Below are positions 2,021 through 27,008 of a stretch of DNA of 30,285 nt, piece after piece. The notes under the pieces are model-generated. The model had not been told where the DNA came from, did no database searches, and saw only the letters and a program-made list of their open reading frames with translations. Numbering within the stretch: position 1 is the stretch's first letter; each line of letters opens with the position of its first letter. The stretch comes from a virus. The stretch spans positions 1 through 30,285 of IMG/VR virus record IMGVR_UViG_3300023179_000363; one strand, given 5' to 3'. Position numbers and translations under genes: made by a program.

Positions 2021-2052
2021 GGCACAAATCGACATCAATGTCGAAATGTTCC
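2021..2052. promoter_or_regulatory. 32-bp palindromic element, copy A
   Basis: Core TCGACATCAATGTCGA (2029-2044) is a perfect 7-bp inverted repeat around CA. Outer arms are GGCACA on the left and TGTTCC on the right. It lies between a leftward terminator and a leftward promoter, about 10 bp upstream of the -35 box. This placement would suit an activator or a loop-forming repressor. One of seven copies in the window. Confidence 0.8.
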
Positions 2053-2057
2053 AGACG

Positions 2058-2081
2058 TAAAAAAACCGCCCGAAGGCGGTT
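2058..2081 (-). terminator. Rho-independent terminator (leftward)
   Basis: On the - strand a 7-bp stem AACCGCC/GGCGGTT with a TTCG tetraloop is followed directly by a T-run (the A-run at 2058-2065 on the + strand). It ends the leftward transcript that contains 3418-2233 and separates it from the VRR-NUC operon. Confidence 0.88.
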
Positions 2082-2092
2082 AGAAATGCAAA

Positions 2093-2110
2093 GGCCACCC
2101 GAAGGTGGCC
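2093..2110. other. Second tetraloop hairpin next to the terminator
   Basis: GGCCACC, CGAA, GGTGGCC form a perfect 7-bp hairpin 12 bases to the right of the terminator hairpin. It has no T-run. On the leftward RNA it would come just before the terminator and could stabilise the 3' end against exonucleases. Confidence 0.6.
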
Positions 2111-2121
2111 CGTGTGGGGGT

Positions 2122-2200
2122 TAGCAGATTCCGCGCCCCCGCGCGGTGTTGGAGAGTCGGGCTTGTATCCTAGCCCCCCAGTTCATAGCAACATCTGCTA
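2122..2200 (-). ncRNA. Candidate structured RNA in a 3' untranslated region
   Basis: On the leftward transcript this stretch can fold into a closed multi-branch shape. The outer stem is 8 bp (2122-2129 with 2193-2200, TAGCAGAT/ATCTGCTA). Inside it are a 5-bp hairpin (2159-2163 with 2172-2176) and a 6-bp GC hairpin with a four-base loop (CCGCGC 2131-2136 with GCGCGG 2141-2146). Two further hairpins and the terminator follow, and no open frame of note covers it. It is not a tRNA: the arms and loops do not fit and there is no CCA end. It could be a small RNA or simply a stable 3' end. The fold is by eye. Confidence 0.4.
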
Positions 2201-2232
2201 GGCGTCTATGTCGTGGGGAATGATTACAGTCA

Positions 2233-2421
2233 TCAGTAGAGCGCAGCTTCCGCACCTACCGATTTAATACTATCCACTTGCTTTTCCTTTTTCAAGCGGG
2301 GTTGGACTACCAACCTGAGGCCGCACTTTCCATTTAGATACTGTTCGGCCTCTTTGCGTATATAAAACTTACGCAGAGCGCCGTCATCGTCGTGGACTTC
2401 AAACCGTGGCTGTGTCTTCAC
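2233..2421 (-). CDS. Hypothetical 62-aa protein, GTG start
   Basis: I choose GTG 2421-2419 (VKTQPRFEVHDDD) because GGAG lies 9 bases upstream and the start overlaps the preceding gene by only 23 bases. A longer frame would run deep into that gene. The product is charged, with KFYIRKEAEQYLNGK in the middle, and ends 33 bases before the structured 3' region. It looks like a small soluble protein; the family is not recognised. Confidence 0.55.
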   Translation of the reverse strand: MKTQPRFEVHDDDGALRKFYIRKEAEQYLNGKCGLRLVVQPRLKKEKQVDSIKSVGAEAALY

Positions 2422-3418
2422 TTGTTTCGTTCTCCACAAATTGCTTTCGATAGATAAAAAACAGATAGCTGTCATCGCTGCTTTGTACCTTAACGCCGAT
2501 GTTCGGTATTGCATGGTCGGTCTCCGCTAGTGTAAGCGTAGCAATCTTTTCTTTAACCCAATCCGGCGCATCCTCTAGGTTAGCAAAGTCTGTCATGTTC
2601 GCACACACGTTGTGTTTTGTGATGTTTGAGTATGCAAAGCGAATGACTGGAATCAAGCTAGTGCCGTCAGGTATCTTCTCACCTTCTTTTTGCAGGATAG
2701 TCTCAAACAATCGGATGCCGCCGTTACGCAATCTAATCGCAAACGCGGCGCTACCGTCACCCAACGCATTTGGAATCTCGTTCTTAATTTTACGGCGAGC
2801 TTTGAATACATTTGCAGTAGAGAATAGTTCTTCCGAAATTTGAAAATTCATCGACTTCGGAATGTCAGCAAAGGTTAGCTTTTCAAGGCCGACTACTTTG
2901 TTGTTTTCAAAAGTTAGGACTTCCGAAAACCAAATGGCAAGTTCTTGTTCCCGCATACGAACGCATCTTTGCATTTCTCGTTCTGCTTGGTCTGTCAACG
3001 TATCTATGCGGCGGTAAAGTTTATCAATTGTTTCGTTGAGAATCTTGTCTACGCTCGGCTTGCACATCAGCCTCTTGGCGTGGCGAACCGCTGCGTTCAA
3101 GTCCGTGGTTATTATCTTATTGCGATTGCCACGGCGCTTGTTGACATTGGGTGAGCCAATACCAAAGGCTGGGTCAGACTGGCCTTCGGAATTAGTTTTT
3201 CCGTTGTGGTTGGCGTATTCAATAGTACCGATGAAATCAACCCCATCGAATATATCGAACCCATTGGTCACAATCTCCCCGCCATATTCGATGGTGCTGC
3301 CAGCACTTTCAAATGTGAAGGTAGAGTTTTGCTTCATCAGTTTATTAACCGCAAGGTCAAGCATGGGGTGCATACGGTTAGTGTTACGTGCGAGTTTGAT
3401 ACGGTTGCTAGATGACAT
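2399..3418 (-). CDS. Hypothetical phage protein, 339 aa
   Basis: ATG 3418-3416 (MSSSNRIKL) is placed 8 bases after GGAG, and a GTG two codons earlier is less likely. The N-terminal third contains SAGSTIEYGGEIVTNG and DFIGTIEYANHN, predicted beta strands. The middle is a long charged helix region (KLYRRIDTLTDQAEREMQ), and the C-terminal part mixes strands and helices. I see no catalytic motif. It lies 32 bases after the 295-aa coiled-coil gene and is probably in the same transcript as the VWA/MoxR module, so a role together with those proteins is possible but not shown. Confidence 0.7.
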   Translation of the reverse strand: MSSSNRIKLARNTNRMHPMLDLAVNKLMKQNSTFTFESAGSTIEYGGEIVTNGFDIFDGVDFIGTIEYANHNGKTNSEGQSDPAFGIGSPNVNKRRGNRNKIITTDLNAAVRHAKRLMCKPSVDKILNETIDKLYRRIDTLTDQAEREMQRCVRMREQELAIWFSEVLTFENNKVVGLEKLTFADIPKSMNFQISEELFSTANVFKARRKIKNEIPNALGDGSAAFAIRLRNGGIRLFETILQKEGEKIPDGTSLIPVIRFAYSNITKHNVCANMTDFANLEDAPDWVKEKIATLTLAETDHAIPNIGVKVQSSDDSYLFFIYRKQFVENETSEDTATV

Positions 3419-3450
3419 TTTCACTTCTCCGTTGTTGGTAAATGTTTACT

Positions 3451-4338
3451 TCAGAATTGAAACTTCGAAAGAATCTCGTCCACCTTGGACTTAACTTCGG
3501 TACGCATATCGGCATCATGTCGCATATCCTGCGAGTCCAAGCCAAAGATTGCGTCGGAAAGTTCCCTACGTGCAGCTTCAAGTTTCGGGTCGCCGGTCAG
3601 GTTCATGTGCTTGAGTAGGTCACATAGTTCTTGCGCATTGCTCATAAGCGAATCCCGAAACACCGTCTTCGTTCCAGTATCCGAAACTTGGAGTCGGTCA
3701 CTCAGATGCGTAAGGCACTTATGTAACCGCTGCCAGCACTCCGACATAGCTTCGCTGATGCGAGAGTCAAACGCTTCTTGAAACTGCTTGACAAGTTCTT
3801 CGTTTGCCTTGGTGCCAATGTCTACGCGGAAATCACCCGAGACTGGTACTGGAGAAATAGCAAAGTCGAATGCAAACTTCCTCTTGACTTCCTCCGCGCT
3901 TGGGTACTCGTTGCGGTCAAACATCTCGCCAAGGTTCATCGCAGCAGCAGACACCATCTCGTCGTACCGACTGAGGAAATCATCTACCATGCCCTCATAT
4001 TCGGTGCGGTGCTTGTCTAGCTGCGCCATGTAATCAAAAAACTTGGACGATGGAAGCAATCGCAAGCCTTGGTCATTCCACGGTAGGGTTACTTGTACGT
4101 TCCAGTTACGGATACGCGCCGCACACTTGGTAATCTCATGTAACAACCGAGTGCCAGCCATCAGGTCTTTCTCATACTTACCCGCCCGAGCCTGCGTCTT
4201 TTTCGCAATATCAACTTCCTCGCTAACCTTGCGGTCTGTCTTGCTTGCGCCCCACGCCTTTACGGACAGTTCAATTAACATCGCGCTCGAAGCAATGCTA
4301 ATGTGTTCGCTTTGCGGTTCGAATACCTGTGTGTTCAT
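3451..4338 (-). CDS. Helical protein of the MoxR/VWA module (DUF3150-like?)
   Basis: The 295-aa product is largely helical and charged, with IELSVKAWGASKTDRKVS near residue 23 and several long amphipathic helices (KFFDYMAQLDKHRTEYE; FQEAFDSRISEAMSECWQ). Phage and plasmid MoxR/VWA loci often include a protein of this size and composition annotated DUF3150. The resemblance is by general pattern and not secure. Its start overlaps the ribbon-helix-helix gene by ATGA and has GGAG 7 bases upstream. Palindromic element B sits 14 bases upstream of its start codon, so its expression may be controlled separately from the genes to the right. Confidence 0.65.
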   Translation of the reverse strand: MNTQVFEPQSEHISIASSAMLIELSVKAWGASKTDRKVSEEVDIAKKTQARAGKYEKDLMAGTRLLHEITKCAARIRNWNVQVTLPWNDQGLRLLPSSKFFDYMAQLDKHRTEYEGMVDDFLSRYDEMVSAAAMNLGEMFDRNEYPSAEEVKRKFAFDFAISPVPVSGDFRVDIGTKANEELVKQFQEAFDSRISEAMSECWQRLHKCLTHLSDRLQVSDTGTKTVFRDSLMSNAQELCDLLKHMNLTGDPKLEAARRELSDAIFGLDSQDMRHDADMRTEVKSKVDEILSKFQF

Positions 4339-4550
4339 TTGTCATCTCCTTGGTACACATCGACATTGGTGTCGATTTGTTCTTGCTTCTTAGCCTTTTG
4401 GTATTCAAGGCAAATGTGTAGAACAACCTGCGCGTAAGACGGCGCAAACCCTAGCTGCTTCATCAACTCCCCACGAACCTCGTCCAGAACTGCAACTGCA
4501 TCTGGAGATACGCTCAGACCCACGCGGCCATCATGTCTGCCTTGTCTCAT
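4335..4550 (-). CDS. Small ribbon-helix-helix-like protein
   Basis: Start ATG 4550-4548 (MRQGRHDG) has GGAG 7 bases upstream; longer readings would overlap the VWA gene. In the 71-aa product a short strand (RVGLSVSP) is followed by helix DAVAVLDEVRGELMKQLG, a turn, and helix SYAQVVLHICLEYQKAK. This is the order of a ribbon-helix-helix (CopG/Arc-like) DNA-binding fold. It is a candidate for the protein that binds the dispersed palindromes, since copy B lies inside its own 3' end, encoding I-D-T-N-V-D. The fold call is from pattern only; a plain helical protein is the alternative. Confidence 0.55.
   Translation of the reverse strand: MRQGRHDGRVGLSVSPDAVAVLDEVRGELMKQLGFAPSYAQVVLHICLEYQKAKKQEQIDTNVDVYQGDDK
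4352..4383. promoter_or_regulatory. 32-bp palindromic element, copy B
   Basis: Core TCGACATTGGTGTCGA (4360-4375) with left flank GGTACACA and right flank TTTGTTCT. It overlaps the last codons of the ribbon-helix-helix-like gene and ends 14 bases upstream of the next start codon, just before that gene's GGAG. Confidence 0.8.
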
Positions 4551-4554
4551 TTCA

Positions 4555-5853
4555 TCACTCCTTGTCAACGTAAACGGAAACACCATAAGAGGGAACGAAT
4601 GATTCATTCCCCACCACACACCACAACACCGGCAACCCCAACTGCTCAAATGCGGAGCCGCCGTCCCCACCATAGAAGTAGCCGTCAGTAAGCATCACGA
4701 CTGCTACCACATCCTCAACCACATCCTTGTTTGCGCCATCTGCCATCCACACAGGAACACACACAGGGTCAGTACCCCCACCTCCCGCAGGTTTTGTAGA
4801 TGATGCGATTTCGTGCATATCTTCTTTGCCGTACTGTTCCACCGATGCAACTTGGGTATCCCAATACAGCAGGATGATTCCGTCGGGCTTTACTTCGTCT
4901 GCAATGTAAGTCAACTCACCGAGAAACCTACCCAACAGCGTATCACCAATAGAACCGCTTGTGTCGAGACCAACCAAAACTTTTCCAACTTTATGCGCGA
5001 TGGTAGTCGGTAGGAAAATGTCTACACCAACAAACCGTTTGTGGAACCGCTTGAAGGTTGCATCGTCGTGTCCTTTGCATACGGCCTTAACAAAGTCACG
5101 CAGCACATCTTCCCACTTGACCTTGGGTGCGAGAAGTTTCTTGATGTCACGCGATACATCACCGTTTAGCTTGCCAGCCAACTGCGCGCCCTGCCGCAAT
5201 GCGCCGTCAATCTTTTCTCGCAGCTCGTCCTCTTGCTCCTTGGTCAAGGCCTTGGCTTCATCCCAACCGTGTTCGTCAAACTGCTTTTTAAGCAATTCGT
5301 CAAAACTATTTGGTTTATTTGGACCATTCGGTGATGGGGTGCCCCATCCCCCGTCAGTTCCTTGCCCATCTTCAAGGCCATTGTCCTCATAGATTTTGTT
5401 GAACACTTGCTTGGCGTCCATGTCCCGATACTGCTCGTCATAACAACCGAGTAGCTCGCCGTTCTCATCAGTAGGGAACTCGACTTCGTTCCCATGCGGG
5501 TCCATATCAACGATTTGCAGATTGATAACAAAGTCACAAGCCATGTTCGCCACTTGCGGATGACGCTCGTACAGACTACGCCACACAATCGTGTGCCGAT
5601 ACGCCATGTGCATAAGCTCGTGGATAAGCACAAACAACAACTGCTTGTCATTGAGAATCTGGATAAACTCACGGCCCAGCTTGATGTTGATGCCGTCGGT
5701 GTACGCAGTCGGGTGGTCATCGACTACTTCAATGGTGCCGACCATGAGCAAACCGGAAAACAAAATCCAGCGGCGGCTGCTCAGTACCTTGTAGATGACG
5801 CGCTCGACGCGCTGCTCTTCGGTCAGTACCGAACTAAATTTTACTGAACCCAT
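4555..5853 (-). CDS. VWA-like metallopeptidase protein (DUF2201 type)
   Basis: The 432-aa protein joins two recognisable parts. Near the N-terminus VLIHELMHMAYRH holds a zincin motif HELMH (residues 78-82). The C-terminal half is a von Willebrand factor A fold with MIDAS elements GLDTSGSIGD (D297, S299, S301), GGTDP (T361) and LTDGYF (D390). Between them is a Gly/Asn/Pro-rich linker (about 163-185). This is the architecture of DUF2201-type putative metallopeptidases, which are encoded beside MoxR-type AAA+ ATPases. The ATPase is thought to remodel the VWA partner or its targets. Start ATG 5853 has GGAG 7 bases upstream and overlaps the preceding gene by 13 bases. Biochemical role in phages is unknown. 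Confidence 0.85.
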   Translation of the reverse strand: MGSVKFSSVLTEEQRVERVIYKVLSSRRWILFSGLLMVGTIEVVDDHPTAYTDGINIKLGREFIQILNDKQLLFVLIHELMHMAYRHTIVWRSLYERHPQVANMACDFVINLQIVDMDPHGNEVEFPTDENGELLGCYDEQYRDMDAKQVFNKIYEDNGLEDGQGTDGGWGTPSPNGPNKPNSFDELLKKQFDEHGWDEAKALTKEQEDELREKIDGALRQGAQLAGKLNGDVSRDIKKLLAPKVKWEDVLRDFVKAVCKGHDDATFKRFHKRFVGVDIFLPTTIAHKVGKVLVGLDTSGSIGDTLLGRFLGELTYIADEVKPDGIILLYWDTQVASVEQYGKEDMHEIASSTKPAGGGGTDPVCVPVWMADGANKDVVEDVVAVVMLTDGYFYGGDGGSAFEQLGLPVLWCVVGNESFVPSYGVSVYVDKE

Positions 5854-6131
5854 TTCGTCTCTCCTTGTTCTTGTAAGAGTTCTACTGCTTCGTCGTAGCT
5901 ATCTCTGATGGCGTCATAAGTAGACGCTAGTCCTCTAACAAATAGCTCTCTAGATATTCCTGCTTGTACTGCGTACATACCGGCAAGGGTTGTGCTTGCA
6001 ACTATTGCGACCACGTGTGCAGACACAGGGTTACCCGCGTCATCTAAGACTTCGGCCTCAGACTCAGATAGGTTTTTGATTGCTGTGTTGGCGGCGACAA
6101 CCATCGCCGCTATCATTTCTTTCTCATTCAT
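5841..6131 (-). CDS. Hypothetical 96-aa protein within the MoxR/VWA module
   Basis: ATG 6131 follows a GAGGGG ribosome binding site. The protein is acidic and helical, with an alanine/valine-rich stretch (SAHVVAIVASTTLAGMYAVQ, about residues 37-56) that is only moderately hydrophobic and a polar C-terminus (YDEAVELLQEQGETKWVQ). It sits between the ATPase and VWA genes and overlaps the latter by 13 bases, so it is co-expressed with them. No family is recognised. Confidence 0.6.
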   Translation of the reverse strand: MNEKEMIAAMVVAANTAIKNLSESEAEVLDDAGNPVSAHVVAIVASTTLAGMYAVQAGISRELFVRGLASTYDAIRDSYDEAVELLQEQGETKWVQ

Positions 6132-6149
6132 TTGGATGCCCCTCGGTGA

Positions 6150-7214
6150 TTAGAACAAGTAAGCGTTGTCACGCGCCCACGAAACAAACGCGCTGCTGCT
6201 GAACAGGACATCTTTCTTCTGCGGGTTCTTGCTTGCAGTCAAACAGAAGATGGACTGAAGTTCCTTCGGGCAACGCTTGAGATACTCAAACCACTTGCCG
6301 ATGTTCTTGTTGTCGATACGCATAACCGCACCGAACGCCATGATGCAAAGCGCAGACACGTGCTTCGGCACAGGTGCAGTCAATGGGTTAGCAATAACTT
6401 CAGCCCACGGTGTAAGTTCATCTGCCATCTGGATGTAGGCCACCATGTCACGCGCACCCGAATAGCCGATGGTTCCTTCCAGCGCAGTAATCAATGCGTT
6501 GGTCGTGTACTTGTCACGGTTACGCACAATCGTCGATGCACCCGCAACAGAACGCGGCGAACAGAACGCAGCTTGCGGACGCTTGGGGTTGTAGTTGTAG
6601 TGATTGTCAGCTTGCGCGGCGTCCTTGTAGCTTTGGAAGATTTGCGGAGTCTCACGCGCCCATGCCATAACTTCCGGCACGATGTCGTTGTGTACCGCCC
6701 AATCGTCAATCCATTCTTGCGTAGTGGGGTTCTTGATTGGCAATTCAGTCACGCGATTGCGGCTGTGTGCTTTCATCACATCGCCAACACCGTCGCCGCT
6801 AAAGTTACCAGCAGTGATGACGACAGACTCAGGATTTATGGTCAGCCCACCGATACGGCGCGGGTGCGTCAGCACAGGGTGCAGGGTGTTCTTCACGCCG
6901 TTCTCGCCTTTGGTAAACTCGTCAAGGAAAATGCAAAGCGGCTCGTCAAGATGGAATCCCCAGAACTCGTTGGGGTAGAACTGTGTGGTGCGCGTCTGAT
7001 GGTTGGGCATGGGGATGCCGATGTCGCCAATCTCTAGGTTAGGTACGTCCATGTAGATAGGCTTCATGTTAAGGCGCTCGGCGATAACCTTATGCATCGC
7101 GGTCTTACCGATACCCGGCGTGCCGACTAAGTGAAAGGTATTGCGCGGGTTGGCGCAGATAAGGTCAACCGCTTCTTTGAGAGTGACGGCGCCGTTGGTT
7201 GCGACTTGTGACAT
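6150..7214 (-). CDS. MoxR-type AAA+ ATPase
   Basis: Walker A GTPGIGKT (residues 31-38), Walker B CIFLDEF (94-100), sensor-1 asparagine in ITAGNFSG (N137) and candidate arginine fingers in HSRNRV (R152, R154) identify an AAA+ ATPase of the MoxR/CbbQ kind. Such ATPases work as hexamers and pair with VWA-domain proteins to remodel or activate targets. The VWA partner gene lies just downstream here. The length (354 aa) is usual, with an extra C-terminal helical part from about residue 255. Start ATG 7214 follows AGGAG by 8 bases. Palindromic element C lies 76 bases upstream. Confidence 0.93.
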   Translation of the reverse strand: MSQVATNGAVTLKEAVDLICANPRNTFHLVGTPGIGKTAMHKVIAERLNMKPIYMDVPNLEIGDIGIPMPNHQTRTTQFYPNEFWGFHLDEPLCIFLDEFTKGENGVKNTLHPVLTHPRRIGGLTINPESVVITAGNFSGDGVGDVMKAHSRNRVTELPIKNPTTQEWIDDWAVHNDIVPEVMAWARETPQIFQSYKDAAQADNHYNYNPKRPQAAFCSPRSVAGASTIVRNRDKYTTNALITALEGTIGYSGARDMVAYIQMADELTPWAEVIANPLTAPVPKHVSALCIMAFGAVMRIDNKNIGKWFEYLKRCPKELQSIFCLTASKNPQKKDVLFSSSAFVSWARDNAYLF

Positions 7215-7253
7215 TGCGAGTTCTCCTGAATAGATAGTAGATAAGACGTTGGA

Positions 7254-8558
7254 TTAATTGCTAACTTCGATACTGCTAACTTCATTGCTGCCACACATCG
7301 ACATTGCTGTCGATTTGTTCTGTACCTTCTTATATTCGGTGAAGGCGTTTACAAAGATAAAGTTTTGGTTGCGCGAGTTCTTAGCCTCGTTCTCGGCGGG
7401 CTTGAATATCCTGTCGGCGTAGCAAACCTTTATCGTTTCTTCCAATACCTCATACATACTGTCATTGCGACAACTAGCAAGCTCGGGTGCTACACCGCGT
7501 AAATCAGGCCAAGCATACGCAACACCACGCGGTCCACTAACGATGATAATGATGTGCGCCTTCAGCCACTCAGTCGGGTCGTTGCCTTGCATCATCTGCA
7601 ATAGCTTGTTCGCGTTCATGCCAAGCTGCGCTGAATCATTCTCAAGAATAGCTGGCAGTCCGTTGAACGGTTGCTTGGTCAAGTAACCCAGCGTCGCCGT
7701 GTTTGCCCTATGGATTTGCGACATCCTGACTGAGTGCGCTCGATGACAGATTGCCATGATGAAATGCTCAATCAAATAATTTTCCGTAATCGGTCTGCTC
7801 CAGAAAGGGTGTTCGGAACCCTCAAACAACTTACGCAATTCGGGCACGATGTTTGGCAGTTCTGAAGTTGGCGTGTCTGGTGGTATCCCCAAAACCTCAA
7901 GGCCAACGCGCCGCGTATCGCCGCTGTCGTATTGCCGCATTGCATTAAGTGTTCGGCAGTAGTCTATGAACGGCGCAATGGTTGGTGTAACTTCCTTGCA
8001 TACCTTATGCCATTCCTTCTTATCCATGTGCCAGTTGCTGTAATGCTCACCTTCCACGGTAATAATGTGTGTGCATCCGTGGATGCTGTTGAACACCGAC
8101 GATAGGGTGTTGAGGTTGATAACCAGCGGGTCTGTCGAGCCGATGAGGTATTTATCGGTTACAGGGTATTGTGCAAACTCTGTCGGCGACCGCGCGTGGG
8201 CGTTAGCCTCGACGAATATCATCTTGCCTCTGTCGATATACACCGTGCCATAGTCCGACGGCAGAATCTTGTCTATGAACGCAGCAGTACTTGGTGTCAC
8301 CCAACCGTTGTGTTTGAGAAGAATGGTGTCGGTCTGCTTGAGAAACGTAACACACGGCGAACCGTACAGGACGCACTCGATGTTCTCGTCTTTGTCCATG
8401 CGCAGCTCCAAGTGCTTGTATCTACGCGCACCTAGGGGCCGAATCTCAGGGTTGCTACCACGGATAGGTGTGGTGCTTTGGTACCGTTTGTATGCCTCGT
8501 TGTATGTGCGCAGTTTTGGTATGAACGCTCCAGATAGCGGGCCGTTGCCATATGCCAT
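7254..8558 (-). CDS. Large phage protein of unknown function, 434 aa
   Basis: I choose ATG 8558 (MAYGNGPLSGAF) because it begins one base after the stop of the upstream small gene; in-frame codons further upstream would overlap it. The N-terminus, including IPKLRTYNEAYKRYQST and PIRGSNPEIRPLGARR, looks like a family I have seen annotated only as hypothetical in phages. The middle has ILPSDYGTVYIDRGKMIFVE and repeated strands; no catalytic motif is clear. The 3' end carries palindromic element C. It may belong functionally with the ATPase gene that follows 39 bases later. Confidence 0.75.
   Translation of the reverse strand: MAYGNGPLSGAFIPKLRTYNEAYKRYQSTTPIRGSNPEIRPLGARRYKHLELRMDKDENIECVLYGSPCVTFLKQTDTILLKHNGWVTPSTAAFIDKILPSDYGTVYIDRGKMIFVEANAHARSPTEFAQYPVTDKYLIGSTDPLVINLNTLSSVFNSIHGCTHIITVEGEHYSNWHMDKKEWHKVCKEVTPTIAPFIDYCRTLNAMRQYDSGDTRRVGLEVLGIPPDTPTSELPNIVPELRKLFEGSEHPFWSRPITENYLIEHFIMAICHRAHSVRMSQIHRANTATLGYLTKQPFNGLPAILENDSAQLGMNANKLLQMMQGNDPTEWLKAHIIIIVSGPRGVAYAWPDLRGVAPELASCRNDSMYEVLEETIKVCYADRIFKPAENEAKNSRNQNFIFVNAFTEYKKVQNKSTAMSMCGSNEVSSIEVSN
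7290..7321. promoter_or_regulatory. 32-bp palindromic element, copy C
   Basis: Core TCGACATTGCTGTCGA (7298-7313) with right flank TTTGTTCT. It is inside the last codons of the 434-aa gene, read there as K-S-T-A-M-S-M, a different frame from copies B and E. It lies upstream of the MoxR-type gene. A 10-base direct repeat (GAAGTTAGCA on the - strand) follows within 40 bases. Confidence 0.78.
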
Positions 8559-8559
8559 C

Positions 8560-8733
8560 TCACACCCCCACTCGATAGCAGACATACGCATCAACACCCA
8601 TGCTGCTAGACGCGTGACAGTCCAAGGCTTTTAGTTGCCAGTCAACACCGATGTTGATGAGTGTCAGCACCACCAGAACAGCAAGCACCGCACCGACCAT
8701 CAACCCCGTGTAGAAGTTATCTTCGTCAATCAT
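8560..8733 (-). CDS. 57-aa membrane protein
   Basis: Start ATG 8733-8731 (MIDEDNFYTG) is set by GGGGAG 6 bases upstream. Residues 10-28 (GLMVGAVLAVLVVLTLINI) form one membrane helix, followed by a polar tail with two cysteines (C42 and C54). Two bases separate the start from the preceding stop and one base separates the stop from the next start. It is one of two adjacent small membrane proteins; both could act at the inner membrane early in infection. No family is recognised. Confidence 0.6.
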   Translation of the reverse strand: MIDEDNFYTGLMVGAVLAVLVVLTLINIGVDWQLKALDCHASSSMGVDAYVCYRVGV

Positions 8734-8734
8734 C

Positions 8735-8869
8735 TCAGTCTCCCCATGCGCCAAACGCTCTGGCGATTTGTGCTACCACCACCACGATGGAAGCAACCAC
8801 AACTGCGTACATCAGCCGACGCTCGGCCTTCGTCAATTCTTCTTCTTGCTTAGGGTCGTACAGTTTCAC
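8735..8869 (-). CDS. 44-aa membrane protein, GTG start
   Basis: A GTG start (8869-8867) lies 8 bases after AAGGAG. The product (MKLYDPKQEEELTKAERR at the start) has a charged N-terminus and one hydrophobic segment (about 19-35, MYAVVVASIVVVVAQIA), then ARAFGAWGD. It overlaps the gene upstream by 20 bases and ends just before the next start. Its good ribosome binding site and membrane-protein composition support it. Confidence 0.6.
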   Translation of the reverse strand: MKLYDPKQEEELTKAERRLMYAVVVASIVVVVAQIARAFGAWGD

Positions 8870-9023
8870 GTCTCTTCTCCTTGGTTGTCAGCACATACTT
8901 GATGTAAGTCTGGTTGTTCTCAGCTAGTAACCGCTTGCGTTTGTTCTCGTCGGCGATTGCAGCTTTGCGTTGGTGATGGTTCCTGATGTAGCTGTAGTCG
9001 CGTGTTGTTCCCTCAGTCGCCAT
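8850..9023 (-). CDS. Small basic protein, 57 aa
   Basis: ATG 9023-9021 follows GGGAG by 7 bases and overlaps the previous gene by 11 bases. The product is rich in Lys/Arg (RNHHQRKAAIADENKRKR; TTKEKRRETVRP) and likely helical, so nucleic-acid binding is possible. A longer in-frame reading exists upstream but would lie wholly within the preceding gene. Function unknown. Confidence 0.6.
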   Translation of the reverse strand: MATEGTTRDYSYIRNHHQRKAAIADENKRKRLLAENNQTYIKYVLTTKEKRRETVRP

Positions 9024-9363
9024 CTTTCTGCTCCCGCTTCGCAGCCTTAGCCACGCGCATCTTCTGCATACGCTCGTAGTCGCGTACCCTGCGCTCGTAT
9101 TCGGTTTTGGGGATAGCCATGCGAACGGATACGAACATGGTCTCACCGTCATCTCCTGCTTTAAGCACAGTCCAGTCTTGCTTGGTGTACTTCCAATCAA
9201 TCTCGCCCACGTTTTGTGCGGCGGTCATAAGCGCGTAGCGGTGCGCCCTTCTTGCCATTGCTTGTGTGTATGCGTGGTGCGGCACGTCGGTGGCGTGGGA
9301 TTGGTTATGTTGGAACAGTTCGACGTCGGTGTCGATTTGTTCCCAGTTGGTTTGGCTGGTCAT
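9013..9363 (-). CDS. Hypothetical 116-aa protein
   Basis: ATG 9363 follows GGGAG by 7 bases. The protein starts MTSQTNWEQIDTDVELF, then has a His-rich stretch, and ends in a very basic helix (RMQKMRVAKAAKREQKDGD). The codons for residues 7-17 contain palindromic element E. The EQIDTxV stretch recurs near the end of the ribbon-helix-helix-like protein only because both genes contain the same DNA element in the same frame. Function unknown. Confidence 0.62.
   Translation of the reverse strand: MTSQTNWEQIDTDVELFQHNQSHATDVPHHAYTQAMARRAHRYALMTAAQNVGEIDWKYTKQDWTVLKAGDDGETMFVSVRMAIPKTEYERRVRDYERMQKMRVAKAAKREQKDGD
9312..9343. promoter_or_regulatory. 32-bp palindromic element, copy E
   Basis: Core TCGACGTCGGTGTCGA (9320-9335) with full outer arms GGAACA (9312-9317) and TGTTCC (9338-9343). 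It sits 20 bases inside the coding region of the 116-aa gene, where a bound protein could block elongation. Confidence 0.85.
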
Positions 9364-9365
9364 TC

Positions 9366-9614
9366 TCAGTCTCCCTTGGTCTCGGTGGTGTTGAGGGCGT
9401 GTTCGATAGCGCGGATTAGGATTGGTACGTTGCGCTCACGCGGGTGCATCAGATGTTGTTGCAGTTGAACCGCAAGATTGCGGAACATATTGATGTGTTG
9501 CTTGCGTGTGTCGAGTAAATGCAGGACTCGGGATAGTTTCTCGTTGGCCTCCTTGGTCTTCGTGGTTAGCTCGCGCAGTTGCAGGATGTGGTTGGTGATG
9601 TCAACGGTGGTCAT
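9366..9614 (-). CDS. 82-aa coiled-coil protein
   Basis: ATG 9614-9612 has GGAG 6 bases upstream; a longer reading would overlap the neighbouring gene. The sequence shows heptad-like helices (ITNHILQLRELTTKTKEAN; LSRVLHLLDTRKQHINMF) over most of its length. The gene is the second in the leftward early transcript. A dimeric or oligomeric accessory protein is likely; no family is recognised. Confidence 0.58.
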   Translation of the reverse strand: MTTVDITNHILQLRELTTKTKEANEKLSRVLHLLDTRKQHINMFRNLAVQLQQHLMHPRERNVPILIRAIEHALNTTETKGD

Positions 9615-9627
9615 TGTTGTCTCCTGA

Positions 9628-9765
9628 TTACAGTTGCCGGTCAGCTTTGGGGTTGATGTAAACCAGTCGCCCGAACAGGAAGTGGCCGTTGTGGATTTGG
9701 TTCTGCACCCTGACTGCTTGGGTGTAGTACATGGGGTAAATGAGGCGGAAGATGAATCGGAACAT
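9628..9765 (-). CDS. 45-aa basic protein, first gene of the early transcript
   Basis: ATG 9765-9763 has GGAG 7 bases upstream. The product starts MFRFIFRLIYPMYYTQ, then QNQIHNGHFLFGRLVYINPK. It is aromatic and basic and could associate with membranes through its first 15 residues. The start codon and ribosome binding site lie inside palindromic element F, so binding of a protein to this DNA, or folding of the RNA, would directly affect expression. It is the first gene after the strong leftward promoter. Confidence 0.55.
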   Translation of the reverse strand: MFRFIFRLIYPMYYTQAVRVQNQIHNGHFLFGRLVYINPKADRQL

Positions 9766-9790
9766 TTCGACACTCCTGTCGTTTTGTGCC
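9759..9790. promoter_or_regulatory. 32-bp palindromic element, copy F
   Basis: Core CGACACTCCTGTCG (9768-9781) with outer arms GGAACA (9759-9764) and TGTGCC (9785-9790). It covers the GGAG and ATG of the 45-aa gene and lies about 55-85 bases downstream of the predicted transcription start. Confidence 0.82.
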
Positions 9791-9850
9791 ACATGGGTGG
9801 CGGGTTGATGAAGGTAGAACACAGGACGCTCTCCAACGTGTCCTTCGGAC

Positions 9851-9879
9851 ATTGTATCATATTCCTACGCGTTTGTCAA
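9851..9879 (-). promoter_or_regulatory. Strong leftward early promoter
   Basis: On the - strand TTGACA (9879-9874), a 17-base spacer and TACAAT (9856-9851) make a near-consensus sigma70 promoter. Transcription would start near 9844 and run through the run of small early genes. It is placed at the edge of the repeat-rich region. Confidence 0.85.
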
Positions 9880-9976
9880 ATAGTTGTGACGTCCTAAAAG
9901 TTTAATTGTTCCAAATGTTCCATGGGATGTGTGTAGCTATGGAACAATTCGAAATCCTACAATAAATATGGTTTGT

Positions 9977-9996
9977 AATGTTCCAGATGGAACATT
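9977..9996. repeat. Palindrome AATGTTCC-AGAT-GGAACATT
   Basis: Perfect 8-bp arms around a 4-base centre (9977-9984 and 9989-9996). The hexamers face the opposite way from those in the 32-bp elements. Confidence 0.8.
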
Positions 9997-10097
9997 AGGG
10001 TACGTGGGATGGAACAATAGGGTGTCAGGGGTGCGGTGCGCGTAAGTGGTTCATTTTATTATTATTTATTAAAAAATATAGATAGAGAGAGATGTAT

Positions 10098-10232
10098 TGT
10101 TCCAATGTTCCACGTTTTTTCGAAAATGTACCCTCGTGTGGCAAAAATTTTTTTCCCTGCAAAATACCTTCGACAGATAAATTTTCTCCAGAATGTGCTC
10201 ATACTTCCCAAAAAACGTGGAACATTGGAACA
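10098..10232. repeat. Perfect 23-bp inverted repeat with 89-bp spacer
   Basis: The left arm 10098-10120 (two TGTTCC, then CACG and a T-run) is the exact reverse complement of the right arm 10210-10232. The spacer contains another half-core TTCGACA near 10168. It could form a cruciform or an RNA hairpin, or bring four binding sites into symmetric positions. The arms are not flanked by a target duplication and hold no transposase, so this is not an insertion sequence. Confidence 0.85.
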
Positions 10233-10329
10233 TTCCTTTATAATCAACGACTTAACTTGGAACAATGCTTGGAACATTTGGAACAAATGGCCTGTTTATG
10301 GAACAATTCGAAATCCTACAGAATCCAAT

Positions 10330-10361
10330 GGAACAATTCGACACCAATGTCGTTTTGTTCC
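10330..10361. promoter_or_regulatory. 32-bp palindromic element, copy G
   Basis: Core TCGACACCAATGTCGT (10338-10353) with outer arms GGAACA (10330-10335) and TGTTCC (10356-10361). It closes the iteron-like array on the right. Its left half (GGAACAATTCGA) equals the beginning of the 24-bp direct repeat, which ties the two repeat types together. Confidence 0.85.
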
Positions 10362-10447
10362 AACACCGAATTTGAGCGCACAGTACGCGCGTAGGCTGCG
10401 GCGTCTTTTTCACCAGTTCCCTCCGGTCACTCCCTGCGCGAGGGCAT

Positions 10448-10472
10448 AAAAAAACCCCCGCCGTAGCGGGGG
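10448..10472 (-). terminator. Rho-independent terminator (leftward)
   Basis: On the - strand a 7-bp GC stem CCCCCGC/GCGGGGG with TACG loop is followed by seven T. It ends the single-gene transcript of the 207-aa protein and insulates the repeat region from it. Confidence 0.92.
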
Positions 10473-10488
10473 CCGTGATGCGGGTGAA

Positions 10489-11112
10489 TCAGGCTTTCGG
10501 CAGCATTGCTTTGATAGCCTCAAGTACCTTCCGGTTGTTGGCGTTCCACTGCAACGCGACTACAGCCTCGCGCACCTCTTTGCGCAGTGCGATGAATGAT
10601 TCCTGCGCCTCTTTGGTTTCGGCCTTAACCTGCGACGCGATGGCCTTGTGAACCATCTGCGCCTCTTTGAGCGCCTCCACTGTGCCAGCCTCCACCAAGG
10701 CCTTTGCTTTCTGCGCCAGTACTGCGCGAGGTTCCGCTGCAAGTGCCTCTACCTTCTTTGCTTCATCCTCGCGCCCCTTGGCTACCTTCTCGGCCTTACC
10801 CTTGGCCTTAGGCTTGGCCAGTCCGCAGCGCGACGCCAGTAGCAGCGCAAACCGTTCCCAGCCCTTCTGCGGGTCATCCAGAGGCGAGGCCTTAATCCAC
10901 GATTCGCGGTACGCGTTCCATTGTTCCAGAGTCGGGTCAATACCTAGACGCTTAGCTGCAGCGTCGACGACAGTGAATATGGCAGTTTCGCCCTTTGCGA
11001 ACGCCTGCGAGTCTAGCTTCGCACCGTCCATGATATCGGCAAAAGGATTGACAACGCCTGCGGCGTTAAGGATGGATTCGGGCTGACCCGATGACTTGGT
11101 GATTGTGCTCAT
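10489..11112 (-). CDS. Early phage protein with Ala/Lys/Glu-rich helical tail, 207 aa
   Basis: ATG 11112 follows GGAGGG by 6 bases. Residues 1-100 look globular (ILNAAGVVNPFADIMDGAK; QWNAYRESWIKASPLDDPQK). From about residue 100 there is a long Lys/Ala/Glu-rich helix (KPKAKGKAEKVAKGREDEAK; LVEAGTVEALKEAQMVHKA), likely a coiled coil. It is a single-gene unit with its own terminator, upstream of the iteron-like region, with palindromic element H about 100 bases before its start. A replication-initiation, nucleoid-like or regulatory protein would fit that position, but I see no known domain. Confidence 0.72.
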   Translation of the reverse strand: MSTITKSSGQPESILNAAGVVNPFADIMDGAKLDSQAFAKGETAIFTVVDAAAKRLGIDPTLEQWNAYRESWIKASPLDDPQKGWERFALLLASRCGLAKPKAKGKAEKVAKGREDEAKKVEALAAEPRAVLAQKAKALVEAGTVEALKEAQMVHKAIASQVKAETKEAQESFIALRKEVREAVVALQWNANNRKVLEAIKAMLPKA

Positions 11113-11211
11113 GATGTACCCTCCGATGGGCGTTAAGTGGCGACGTCCGCCACAACGTCATCCTACAGTATCCAACACCTGGTAGCGTGAATCTTTTGTT
11201 ACAAGTCGCGC

Positions 11212-11243
11212 GGTACACTTCGACGCGCGTGTCGATTTGTTCC
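11212..11243. promoter_or_regulatory. 32-bp palindromic element, copy H
   Basis: Core TCGACGCGCGTGTCGA (11220-11235), left flank GGTACACT, right flank TTTGTTCC. It lies in the divergent region about 100 bases upstream of the 207-aa gene and 200 bases before the rightward promoter. Confidence 0.82.
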
Positions 11244-17211: not shown

Positions 17212-17403
17212 ATGAACGACACGCTTGAGTATCTGATTAAAAAAATCGGAGAGGAGCGCACCAATCTCGCAGATTGTTTGGTTGAAGGCAACCTAAACGA
17301 TTTTGCGCAATATCAATTTTTGTGTGGCCAAGCCCGAGGTCTTTTGGTCGCACAAGTACTTATCCAAGACCTTGCAAAACAACTGGAGTATGACGATGAC
17401 TGA
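17212..17403 (+). CDS. Small helical protein after the portal, 63 aa
   Basis: It starts 3 bases after the portal stop and overlaps the co-chaperonin-like gene by 8 bases. The protein looks like two helices (EYLIKKIGEERTNLADCLVE and DFAQYQFLCGQARGLLVAQV), ending in acidic residues. Similar tiny proteins sit after portal genes in related phages with no known role. No clear Shine-Dalgarno is present, which suggests coupling to the portal. Confidence 0.65.
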   Translation: MNDTLEYLIKKIGEERTNLADCLVEGNLNDFAQYQFLCGQARGLLVAQVLIQDLAKQLEYDDD

Positions 17404-17755
17404 AGAAGTCACGCAGGAAAAACCCACGCAATTACCCGAACCAAAAGGCTATCGGATTCTTTGCGCAGTTCCTGATGTTGGGGACACATATGAAAATGGT
17501 CTGTTAAAAGCAGATAAGACAAAAGAAGTAGAAGCAGTTTCTACGGTAGTTCTTTTTGTTCTTAAGCTTGGAGACCAATGCTACAAAGATGTAGACCGGT
17601 TTCCGACCGGACCTTGGTGTAAAGAAGGAGATTTTGTCCTTTGCCGGGCTTACGCAGGTACCCGCATCAAGATTCACGGTAGGGAATTTCGCATTATCAA
17701 TGACGATACCGTTGAGGCAGTTGTTGATGACCCCCGCGGCTATAGCCGCGCATAA
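17396..17755 (+). CDS. GroES-like co-chaperonin (Cpn10 fold)
   Basis: The second of two close ATGs (17396) is used because GGAG lies 7 bases before it. After a short acidic lead, GYRILCAVPDV matches the start of the Cpn10 barrel, followed by a region with NGLLKADKTKEVEAVSTVVL in place of the usual mobile loop and strand, then VGD-like steps (KEGDFVLCRAYAGTRIKIHG) and EFRIINDDTVEAVVDDP, which mirrors the E-(Y/F)-x-I-(M/I)-x-x-x-D-I-L-A end of GroES. T4 gp31 is the model for a phage co-chaperonin that lets host GroEL fold the capsid protein. The position between portal and capsid genes fits. Confidence 0.78.
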   Translation: MTEEVTQEKPTQLPEPKGYRILCAVPDVGDTYENGLLKADKTKEVEAVSTVVLFVLKLGDQCYKDVDRFPTGPWCKEGDFVLCRAYAGTRIKIHGREFRIINDDTVEAVVDDPRGYSRA

Positions 17756-20062: not shown

Positions 20063-20974
20063 ATGGCAATTTCTCGTGCCCAGCTACTTAAGGAACTCCT
20101 GCCCGGCCTGAACGCGCTGTTCGGTATGGAGTATGCTCGCTACGGCGAGGAACACAAGGAAATCTACGAAACCGAAACTTCGGAACGTAGCTTTGAAGAA
20201 GAAACCAAGCTGTCGGGCTTCTCGGCTGCGCCGGTCAAGAACGAAGGTACTGCTATTCGTTACGACAACGCGCAAGAAGCTTGGACCGCTCGCTATAACC
20301 ACGAAACCATCGCTTTGGGTTTCTCGCTGACTGAAGAAGCAATCGAAGATAACCTCTACGATTCGCTGTCGGCTCGTTACACCAAGGCTCTGGCTCGTGC
20401 TATGGCATACACCAAGCAAGTTAAGGCTGCTAACGTCCTGAACCAAGGCTTCAACCCCGCTTATGTTGGTGGCGACGGTGTTGCTCTGTTCTCGACCTCG
20501 CATCCGCTTGTCAATGGTGGCGTTAACAGCAACACCCCGGCAGTCGCTGCTGACCTGAACGAAACCTCGCTGGAAAACGCTGTGATTCAAATCGCTGCGT
20601 GGACCGACGAACGTGGTCTGCTGATTGCTGCTAAGCCGAAGAAGCTGATTGTTCCGCCCGCGCTGCAGTTCGTCGCTACTCGTCTGTTGGAAACCGAACT
20701 CCGCGTCGGCACCACTGACAACGACATCAACGCGCTGAAGAACAACGGTTCGATTCCGGAAGGCTACACCATCAACCACTTCTTGACCGACACGAACGCA
20801 TGGTTCCTGACCACCGACGTTCCGAACGGCATGAAGCACTTCGAGCGCACCCCGCTGGCTACCTCGATGGATGGTGACTTTGATACCGGTAACGTCCGTT
20901 ACAAGGCCCGCGAGCGTTACTCGTTCGGCTGGTCGGACCCGCTGGGTATGTTCGGTTCGCCGGGCGCCAGCTAA
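20063..20974 (+). CDS. Major capsid protein
   Basis: The 303-aa protein begins MAISRAQLLKELLPGLNALFG, and the sequence is compatible with the HK97 fold: an N-terminal arm, EEHKEIYETETSERSFEEET in the E-loop region, TARYNHETIALGFSLTEEAI, and a P-domain and A-domain running to YSFGWSDPLGMFGSPGAS. There is no long N-terminal delta domain, so the separate scaffold protein probably replaces it. A good GGAG precedes the start, codon choice is strongly biased, and a strong terminator follows. Capsid is the best call given neighbours and composition. Confidence 0.9.
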   Translation: MAISRAQLLKELLPGLNALFGMEYARYGEEHKEIYETETSERSFEEETKLSGFSAAPVKNEGTAIRYDNAQEAWTARYNHETIALGFSLTEEAIEDNLYDSLSARYTKALARAMAYTKQVKAANVLNQGFNPAYVGGDGVALFSTSHPLVNGGVNSNTPAVAADLNETSLENAVIQIAAWTDERGLLIAAKPKKLIVPPALQFVATRLLETELRVGTTDNDINALKNNGSIPEGYTINHFLTDTNAWFLTTDVPNGMKHFERTPLATSMDGDFDTGNVRYKARERYSFGWSDPLGMFGSPGAS

Positions 20975-25022: not shown

Positions 25023-27008
25023 ATGGGATTTTCAAGCACTGGGTCTACTGGCACTGGAGCTAATAGTAACCAAACTAGCGGCCAAACCAGCAATCAAACC
25101 GGTGTAGGGTCTAATCCTACAACTACTGGGCAAACCCAGCCTACCGGTTCGCAATACGGCGGTAAAGGCGGCGGATACGCACAGCCTAATCCGCAAGATA
25201 CTCCGCGTAATCCGTATGCGGTCAATACAGATACATCATCTCAACAAACGTACATGCCATTTGGGCAAACCGCCTATGGGTACAACATGCAGCGTTTGGC
25301 ACAGCGCATGGACCCTTCCGCAGCGTTGCCGGGTGATTACAACCGCCCTAGTTTCTATCAACCGCAAGCCCCGCAGTTTTTCCAACCTCAAATTGACGTA
25401 GAGGGACTAAAGTCCGCTTTTGGTGGAAAGGGTGGCGGTACGGCCGATACTAAAGGGTCTACAGATACAACAACCCCGGCTACCACTCCCGCAGCTACAG
25501 ATACGCAACAGCCGCAAAACCAATATGATACTAGGTTCAGCGCACTAGAAGAAAAACTAAACCAACTTCTAGCCGCGCGCTCTGGCGCTGGTACAACAGC
25601 CCCAGCTACCTCTGATACGACTACTCCTACCAGCACTTCGGCCGCTACTTCTGGTACAACAGCCCCAGCTACCTCTAGTACGACTGCCCCTACCGGCACT
25701 TCGGCCGCTACTTCTGGTACAACGGCCCCAGCTACCTCTGATACGACTGCTCCTACCGGCACTTCGGCCGCTACAGATTCTGAAATTAAAGATACTGGAG
25801 AAGCTACGTATTCTCAAACGGCGGCTGCTAGTAAATTTGGGGTTGGGACTAATGCAGCGGAGGCGTCTACGCCGCTTACAGATACACAATTATCTGACGC
25901 AAAAGAAGCAAAAGCCGCCGAAGCAACGGCTACAGCAGCAAAAATTGACCCCGTTACGGGCAAGCCAAAATATCAATATGGCACGTATACTGCTCCTACT
26001 GATGAGCAACTATCTGGGTTGGGTAGCAAAGCAAACATTCAATCTTACTATAATCAACAGGCCGCTAGGGCTAAAACTGACTTGGCAGCGGCACAAAAAG
26101 CGCTAAAAGCTGCGCAAAAAAGCGGCTCGATGGATGACCAAGTAGCCGCCCAAAAACAAGTTAGCGCCATCTTACAACGCCAAGCTCAAATTGCCGCGGA
26201 TTCAAAGAAGACATTGGCCCAAGTAGGCAAGACCGGCTATCAAACAGCCTCGCAGATTCAAGCTAGCAAGGATGCAGCAGCTAAGGCCGCAGCAGATAAA
26301 CAGGCAGCAGCTAAAGCACAGGCGGACGCAGCGGCTAAGGCTAAGGCAGATGCAGCAGCTAAGGCCACAGCAGATAAACAAGCCGCGGCTAAAGCCAAGG
26401 CAGATGCAGCAGCTAAGGCCGCCGCAGACAAACAAGCCAAAGCGCAAGCGGATGCACAAGCCAAAGCACAAGCAGAGGCGCAGAAGAAAGCCGCAGCGGA
26501 TACGGCCGCTAAGGCTAAGGCAGATGCAGCAGCTAAGGCCACAGCAGATAAACAAGCCAAAGCACAAGCGGATGCACAAGCCAAAGCACAAGCAGAAGCG
26601 CAGAAGAAAGCCGCAGCGGAAAAAGCAGCCCAAGAAAAAGCCGCAGCGCAAAAAGCAGCCCAAGAAAAGGCAGCCGCCGATAAAGCCGCAGCTCAGCAAG
26701 CCGCGCAGGAAAAAGCTGAAGCAGAGCGTGCCGCTAAAGAAAGAGCGGCTCAAGAAAAAGCGCAAGCAGAGGCGCAGAAGAAAGCCGCAGGGGAAAAAGC
26801 AGCCCAAGAAAAAGCCGCTGCCGCACAGAAGGCCGCAGAAGAAAAAGCCGCTGCTAAGCAAGCCGCTGCAGAAAAAGCCGCTGCAGAAAAAGCAGCAAAA
26901 GCGCAAGCAGCTGCAGCTAAGAAAACGACCAAAAAAGCAAAGGGCGGTACAGTCATTGCCCACAAAGGAATGACGCCCAACCTTAAAAAACAGTTAGGAA
27001 TTAAATGA
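25023..27008 (+). CDS. Low-complexity protein with TolA-like Ala/Lys/Gln rod, 661 aa
   Basis: The protein has three parts. Residues 1-190 are Gly/Thr/Gln/Pro-rich and disordered, with GGKGGG patches. Residues about 190-252 contain three 21-residue repeats (GTTAPATSDTTAPTGTSAAT type). Residues about 415-635 are an almost pure Ala/Lys/Gln/Glu/Asp helix (units such as AAKAKADAAAKAAADKQ), like domain II of TolA. The end is KKAKGGTVIAHKGMTPNLKK, carrying the GGTV patch. It could be an extended periplasm- or tail-spanning rod, or an ejected protein; TolA mimicry is an inference from composition. It sits directly before connector genes. Confidence 0.72.
   Translation: MGFSSTGSTGTGANSNQTSGQTSNQTGVGSNPTTTGQTQPTGSQYGGKGGGYAQPNPQDTPRNPYAVNTDTSSQQTYMPFGQTAYGYNMQRLAQRMDPSAALPGDYNRPSFYQPQAPQFFQPQIDVEGLKSAFGGKGGGTADTKGSTDTTTPATTPAATDTQQPQNQYDTRFSALEEKLNQLLAARSGAGTTAPATSDTTTPTSTSAATSGTTAPATSSTTAPTGTSAATSGTTAPATSDTTAPTGTSAATDSEIKDTGEATYSQTAAASKFGVGTNAAEASTPLTDTQLSDAKEAKAAEATATAAKIDPVTGKPKYQYGTYTAPTDEQLSGLGSKANIQSYYNQQAARAKTDLAAAQKALKAAQKSGSMDDQVAAQKQVSAILQRQAQIAADSKKTLAQVGKTGYQTASQIQASKDAAAKAAADKQAAAKAQADAAAKAKADAAAKATADKQAAAKAKADAAAKAAADKQAKAQADAQAKAQAEAQKKAAADTAAKAKADAAAKATADKQAKAQADAQAKAQAEAQKKAAAEKAAQEKAAAQKAAQEKAAADKAAAQQAAQEKAEAERAAKERAAQEKAQAEAQKKAAGEKAAQEKAAAAQKAAEEKAAAKQAAAEKAAAEKAAKAQAAAAKKTTKKAKGGTVIAHKGMTPNLKKQLGIK
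25590..25778 (+). repeat. Three tandem 63-bp repeats
   Basis: Units begin at 25590, 25653 and 25716, and each encodes a 21-residue Thr/Ala/Ser/Pro-rich segment. Differences are few (mostly single substitutions) except for the last bases of copy three. The number of units could vary between strains by slippage. Confidence 0.88.
26265..26930 (+). repeat. Degenerate repeats encoding the Ala/Lys/Gln rod
   Basis: Blocks such as the sequence around 26335-26390 reappear near 26512-26565 with few changes, and many GCAGCTAAGGC-like units recur. The long open frames on the other strand here are a by-product of this composition. Confidence 0.75.

Follow-up and report, generated by a model that had tools for sequence, protein, structure and literature searches.

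A MoxR-like ATPase, a VWA protein and a DUF3150 protein form a co-evolving cassette shared by phages and plasmids

The IMG/VR virus record IMGVR_UViG_3300023179_000363, whose 30,285 bases are referred to here as the window, carries a cassette of three genes encoding a MoxR/midasin-like AAA ATPase, a von Willebrand factor A (VWA) protein with a putative N-terminal metallopeptidase domain, and a protein of the Pfam family DUF3150. We found that the ATPase and VWA genes keep their characteristic residues across viral relatives, and that all three genes occur together in nearly every related viral locus, evolve as a unit, are present or absent together within one phage lineage, and are shared with plasmids. 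Our favored reading, held with moderate confidence, is that the cassette encodes a MoxR-vWA ternary machine that, early in infection, remodels or proteolyzes a complex belonging to either the host or the element. More tentatively, the MoxR-vWA(peptidase)-DUF3150 combination may be a distinct ternary class of MoxR-vWA machines peculiar to mobile elements, carried by phages and conjugative plasmids as an exchangeable accessory weapon that takes apart or cuts host (defense) complexes at entry, in which DUF3150 would be the fast-changing target adaptor.

The minus strand codes the left arm of the window and the plus strand codes the right arm, including terminase, portal, and major capsid protein (MCP); judging from gene content, the minus-strand arm is probably the early arm. 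In the order of minus-strand transcription, the genes encode protein X (8597-7254), the ATPase (7214-6150), a 96-residue protein (6131-5841), the VWA protein (5853-4555), a small ribbon-helix-helix (RHH)-like protein (4550-4335), and the DUF3150 protein (4338-3451). A preliminary description of this DNA, made from its letters and open reading frames, had placed a MoxR-type ATPase, a 96-residue protein, a HELMH plus VWA protein, a small RHH-like protein, and a large helical protein in one overlapping set at 4335-7214. All five are present on the minus strand, and overlaps do join the 96-residue and VWA genes (13 nt) and the RHH-like and DUF3150 genes (4 nt), but the ATPase gene and the 96-residue open reading frame lie 18 nt apart and the DUF3150 gene falls outside that interval. 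DUF3150 as a third component, its occurrence on plasmids, and the non-core status of the 96-residue protein had all been missed.

The viral sample consisted of the best 80 of 167 VWA relatives found by two peptide patterns, chosen by the VWA gene alone, and was searched with three profile models built from 9 to 17 sequences, the window's own included. ATPase, VWA, and DUF3150 genes lay on one strand in 75 of the 80 loci and were all present in each of the 52 loci flanked on either side by 2.5 kb or more; the five incomplete loci sit at contig edges. The three genes stand together in three arrangements, DUF3150-ATPase-VWA (61 loci), ATPase-VWA-DUF3150 (8 loci), and ATPase-DUF3150-VWA (6 loci). 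Among 44 plasmids carrying DUF3150, 41 also hold a VWA gene, which directly follows it on the same strand in 39, 2.9 kb away in one, and at the opposite record end in one. Of the plasmids inspected, those of Burkholderia, Rhodovastum, Variovorax, and Cupriavidus have the order ATPase-DUF3150-VWA, and several genes separate ATPase from DUF3150 in a Simplicispira plasmid. Bacterial contigs fetched by DUF3150 (n=78) held all three genes in 57 cases, DUF3150 and VWA in three, ATPase and DUF3150 in one, and DUF3150 alone in 17; a cluster of proteins of about 500 residues precedes DUF3150 in 13 bacterial loci.

The three genes evolve as a unit. Across 25 lineages with all genes, represented by one locus each, pairwise distances correlated with r = 0.93 for VWA and ATPase, 0.89 for VWA and DUF3150, and 0.89 for ATPase and DUF3150 (0 of 2000 permutations as high). 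Correlations of the three genes with a nearby nuclease gene were 0.32, 0.24, and 0.26 (values reached in 3, 39, and 27 of 2000 permutations, respectively). This independence from the neighboring nuclease counts against a machine for loading, recycling, or removing the proteins of phage DNA replication or recombination, as does the presence of replication genes in sister phages that lack the module. Such a role, which we consider rather improbable, would fit the early-arm position, the nuclease gene found nearby in 28 of 31 lineages, the location of phage N4's ATPase-VWA pair, gp24/gp25, in a dCTP deaminase-helicase-polymerase region, and the presence of SSB, RecT, and lambda-exonuclease genes roughly 10-16 kb away from the cassette of plasmid pCAR1.

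The module also diverges rapidly: in four phages with an MCP 76-90% identical to that of the window, module proteins are only 29-43% identical and terminases 49-71% identical (ranges that leave out the near-identical contig G001, with 93% for the MCP and 94-99% for module proteins). Because gene orders differ among close virion relatives, we infer that the cassette may be exchanged.

The 354-residue ATPase (6150-7214) carries a Walker A motif, GTPGIGKT, and a Walker B motif, IFLDEF, and matched Pfam AAA_5/AAA and phrog_1297 (E 1e-48); midasin was the best solved match of its profile. AAA_3, which we take to be the MoxR-type model, was matched in one of 35 ATPase members, the window protein not being that one, and AAA_5 in 13 of 35. 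K37, D98, E99, N137, and R221 are identical in all 74 viral ATPases. The 432-residue VWA protein (4555-5853) matched DUF2201_N (3.6e-21) and the VWA-like domain DUF2201 (8.9e-11) in Pfam, with a further weak match to M48, and phrog_1314 (E 8.2e-72), a family bearing the misleading label HNH endonuclease that has been copied into many phage GenBank annotations. Its HELMH motif occupies residues 78-82, and its metal-ion-dependent adhesion site (MIDAS) comprises D297, S299, S301, T361, and D390. In an AlphaFold2 model (predicted local distance difference test score, pLDDT, 81), residues 286-432 matched VWA-domain folds (Z 13.6, root-mean-square deviation 2.4, 144 residues aligned), the human midasin MIDAS domain being among the matches; the fold search barely reached the peptidase half (residues 1-255).

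After viral VWA proteins shorter than 330 residues had been dropped, H78, E79, H82, N103, D107, N111, and the five MIDAS residues were identical in 73 of 73. All 73 hold the selection pattern TA[AY]T[DN]G[IK]N, so that conservation of this stretch follows from how the set was chosen; the same does not apply to HExxH, because only two of the 73 hold the pattern HE[IL]MH. These invariant residues bear out the earlier view that both enzymes have intact motif sets, and because the sets are intact and conserved, both are likely under selection for activity. Loss of catalytic residues in relatives, an outcome that the preliminary description had named as counting against its reading, was seen in none of the phage proteins; it did occur among plasmid and bacterial VWA proteins (n=61, those of 300 residues or fewer dropped), 53 of which hold both motifs, seven lack HExxH, and one lacks the DxSGS pattern. 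The seven, which keep the MIDAS, are from loci L021, L028, L032, L033, L035, L058, and L076. Because HExxH is absent in seven and DxSGS in one, the peptidase chemistry seems easier to do without than MIDAS binding.

The 295-residue product of the third core gene (3451-4338, minus strand) was aligned with eight relatives and matched DUF3150 (PF11348) at 26.6 bits against a cut-off of 24.9, its only Pfam match; its core status derives from this match together with co-occurrence and co-evolution. It is the large helical protein of the preliminary description, and its predicted structure (pLDDT 88, predicted template modeling score 0.60) combines a mixed N-terminal part with a C-terminal four-helix bundle. 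Residues 181-295 matched generic four-helix bundles (VIA-align, Z up to 8.7, tied rows), and the N-terminal half was barely covered. Because no clear solved fold match emerged, a role as adaptor is a guess. DUF3150 was found in 4 of 50,697 phage records versus 44 of 72,556 plasmid records. We also observed DUF3150 behind another AAA ATPase in a Manganitrophus plasmid (L023:2854-5876, alongside DUF1257 and DUF2997 and with no VWA gene annotated) and in phage Tunturi_3 (L007:5090-9744).

We then consider where the cassette is present among phages with related virions. The window's lineage is one of common uncultivated phages, with at least 600 stretches in IMG/VR matching its MCP (20063-20974), and its nearest cultured relatives include Pelagibacter phages. 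Besides additional virion genes, Pelagibacter phages HTVC023P and HTVC027P, together with DSL-LC04 and 023Pt_psg01, share with it the MCP (63-65% identity), TerL (52-59%), and portal (42-44%). Whole-record profile and protein searches found no VWA, DUF3150, or ATPase relatives in any of these four complete cultured phages, the one match (E 0.014, in 023Pt_psg01) being short and containing a stop; Synechococcus phage MinM2, the positive control, holds all three genes. From the 80 capsid loci retained in a selection by MCP we took every IMG/VR record that was 40 kb or longer, ten in all: the same six hold VWA, DUF3150, and ATPase genes, and the same four hold none. One of these four, G045 (66 kb, MCP 86% identical), extends from the terminase as far as the genes found beyond the module in other records, yet does not contain it. 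The six VWA proteins, which are free of pattern-search bias, all keep HExxH and DxSxS. The window's capsid type was present in 25 of 35 module-bearing records searched (35 of 81 records), and the other 10 may be fragments. The cassette is therefore accessory and all-or-none within one lineage, and because it is split six to four among the MCP-selected records and absent from all four cultured relatives, its distribution speaks against its being required to build the conserved virion.

These results bear on the one published proposal we found for the phage pair, in which the ATPase and the VWA protein act in folding or assembling the proteins of the virion and the peptidase domain trims these, as put forward for jumbo phages (PMC7824862). 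Interaction of ATV p618/p892 with virion proteins (PMC4124505) lends it support. A need of the module for its virion type, as with p618/p892, is contradicted by the four cultured phages that have homologous head, portal, and terminase genes without it, and we rejected an obligate role in virion assembly on this ground; G045, the plasmids that carry the module, and its position in the early arm on the strand opposite to the structural genes point the same way. We keep virion assembly as an unlikely rival because tail parts differ, so that a role in a variable tail is possible. The proposal is nonetheless weakened, at least for the window's lineage.

Under the reading we favor, a ternary machine acting early in infection, the ATPase would form a hexamer plugged by the VWA protein, as in NorQ/NorD. 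The VWA MIDAS would hold a client that ATP hydrolysis remodels, and the N-terminal zincin-like domain, present in most but not all members, may cut the client or one of the cassette's own proteins. DUF3150, as the dedicated third subunit, would serve as adaptor, sensor, or regulator and choose what is remodeled and when. The client would be a complex in the cytoplasm, of host or element origin, that is encountered soon after entry (defense, replication, or transcription) rather than the conserved head. We favor an early cytoplasmic client over a general virion role because of the spread across phages and plasmids, the all-or-none presence, the early arm, the fast divergence, and the absence from virion sisters. 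Several of these observations are shared with a different account, in which the cassette is an element-borne anti-phage conflict system whose ternary MoxR-vWA machine senses a competitor and releases a peptidase, as has been argued for iSTAND/VMAP systems. Known systems of that kind have the same core pair with a distinct third protein (PMC7159879, PMC12839542), and both fast divergence and carriage on phages and plasmids suit it. However, Pfam revealed no effector domain besides the zincin-like one, and PADLOC matched none of seven module-region proteins apart from a weak ATPase P-loop match to IetA (E 5e-4), on which basis we rejected a known defense system. We regard this account, too, as improbable.

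Several observations weigh against our favored reading. DUF3150 occurs without a VWA gene in the 17 bacterial loci where it stands alone and in the Manganitrophus plasmid. Conversely, no DUF3150 was detected in the fetched stretch of any of 10 loci from Schitoviruses, jumbo phages, and other phages that carry the pair, suggesting that DUF3150 is dispensable for some pairs. The DUF3150 protein has no clear solved fold match (best Foldseek E 0.29), and the peptidase motif has been lost from the seven plasmid or bacterial VWA proteins noted above. Among the four MCP-selected records without the cassette, G045 alone was seen to run across the region where it lies elsewhere, G043 breaking there, and the lack of the cassette in sister phages might stem from a difference in tail clients instead of a role outside the virion. 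DUF3150 as a co-evolving third part defines a three-protein complex to reconstitute and test as one unit, and all-or-none presence in one lineage supplies natural pairs with and without the cassette for functional tests.

Two small genes and two larger ones accompany the cassette. A 112-residue reading of the RHH-like protein starts inside the VWA gene; the likely gene (4335-4550, minus strand) encodes 71 residues, with relatives equally short. It is a recurrent accessory gene, with matches in 12 other loci that lie directly beside the VWA gene in all but one. Three members had no Pfam match at E 1, and the RHH-like assignment, judged by eye and from recurrence, is plausible. For the 96-residue protein (5841-6131, minus strand), neither Pfam nor a search of 50,697 phage records at E 1 gave any match; its sole match among 82 relative loci was in G001, and we discarded it as a core component. 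Small genes occupy its place in nACB1 and At2, and blastp found no match between it and those two. Proteins X (447 residues, 7254-8597, minus strand) and Y (2399-3424) flank the module. Weak homologs of X, a possible neighbor family, adjoin the module in other phages: hhalign against a protein beside the VWA gene in other lineages gave a probability of 89.7% over 102 columns (X112) and of 30% (X126), and tblastn matched L106-L108. These links are too weak to claim X as a conserved fourth component.

The preliminary description had two palindromes flanking the set. Both are real, but palindrome C (7291-7320), upstream of the ATPase gene, lies inside the 3' end of gene X, and palindrome B (4353-4382), at the junction of the RHH-like and DUF3150 genes, lies inside the set once DUF3150 is counted. 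Nor are they special marks of the module, since seven 30-bp copies extend along 2022-11242, the others being at 2022-2051, 9313-9342, 9760-9789, 10331-10360, and 11213-11242. The copies approximate GAACAAATCGACA-N4-TGTCGATTTGTTC; every one is in the minus-strand arm, most of them at the ends of genes, and the pattern with up to three mismatches had five sites versus none in 100 shuffles. G001 has eight sites in its fetched part; one of these, a perfect copy immediately following the ATPase gene, is absent from the window. Because the sites fall, by eye, in different reading frames, a function in DNA binding is likelier than one as protein repeats, and the operator-like copies are possibly the operator network of a phage regulator.

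Elsewhere in the window, a tRNA-Leu (taa) at 170-258 is followed by a MazG-like gene (265-567). TGTTCC/GGAACA repeats are numerous in about 600 bp at 9860-10490, which also hold a stretch rich in AT and an inverted repeat of 28 nt and could be an origin or regulatory region. A probable phage GroES co-chaperonin, identified by similarity and by order with annotated relatives, lies at 17303-17755. A 661-residue protein (25023-27008) with three 63-bp repeats (25588-25776) and a long run of short repeats (26235-26935) has no relative in five phage records compared and is probably a fiber-like part.

Compared with known systems, the ATPase-VWA pair is neither new nor unusual in phages (N4 gp24/gp25; Iyer 2021), contrary to how the module had appeared at first: tblastn found ATPase relatives in 471 and VWA relatives in 704 of 50,697 phage records, N4 gp24/gp25 among them. 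A table in PMC2784036 gives gp24/gp25 as such a pair, and the available parts of PMC11879866 yielded nothing on them. A role for the phage pair has also been proposed in print: for jumbo phages, PMC7824862 describes a MoxR-vWA pair that includes an N-terminal metallopeptidase and suggests a part in virion assembly. We found no experimentally tested function for phage or SXT-type MoxR-vWA genes in the literature searched. N4 gp24/gp25 and jumbo phage group 2.2 resemble the window in having a homologous ATPase and a VWA protein with N-terminal HExxH near each other, and differ in that DUF3150, nearly always present in the phages studied here, was missing from the 10 fetched stretches of such pairs.

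The closest plasmid counterpart is the row of MoxR ATPase, DUF3150, and VWA genes at ORF101-103 of the conjugative plasmid pCAR1, although its ATPase has a CbbQ_C domain and its VWA protein is CoxE/NorD-like and without DUF2201. The ORF100-103 block is reported to be conserved in R478, Rts1, SXT, and R391, and the available part of PMC2642839, which reports this, names only the MoxR and VWA genes; by that account MoxR-vWA genes are common to N4-like phages and SXT/R391-type elements. In the cellular NorQ/NorD system (PMC9976466), the VWA protein plugs an AAA hexamer and binds the target through its MIDAS. The same working principle likely applies to NorQ/NorD, CbbQ/CbbO, RavA/ViaA, and the window's module, although those systems are cellular and two-component, with a known target in the case of NorQ/NorD. 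To our knowledge, none of the three has a peptidase domain. Ternary conflict systems pair MoxR and vWA with a third protein that is VMAP, iSTAND, FtsH, or a beta-propeller, and some of their vWA proteins carry peptidase domains (PMC7159879). The window shares with them the core pair and a distinct third protein, and differs in its carriers, phages and plasmids, in having no effector suite that we could see, and in the third protein itself, which matched PF11348 alone in Pfam and nothing in PADLOC. The term DUF3150 is absent from the literature searched, and DUF3150 as the third component of a phage MoxR-vWA module is new.

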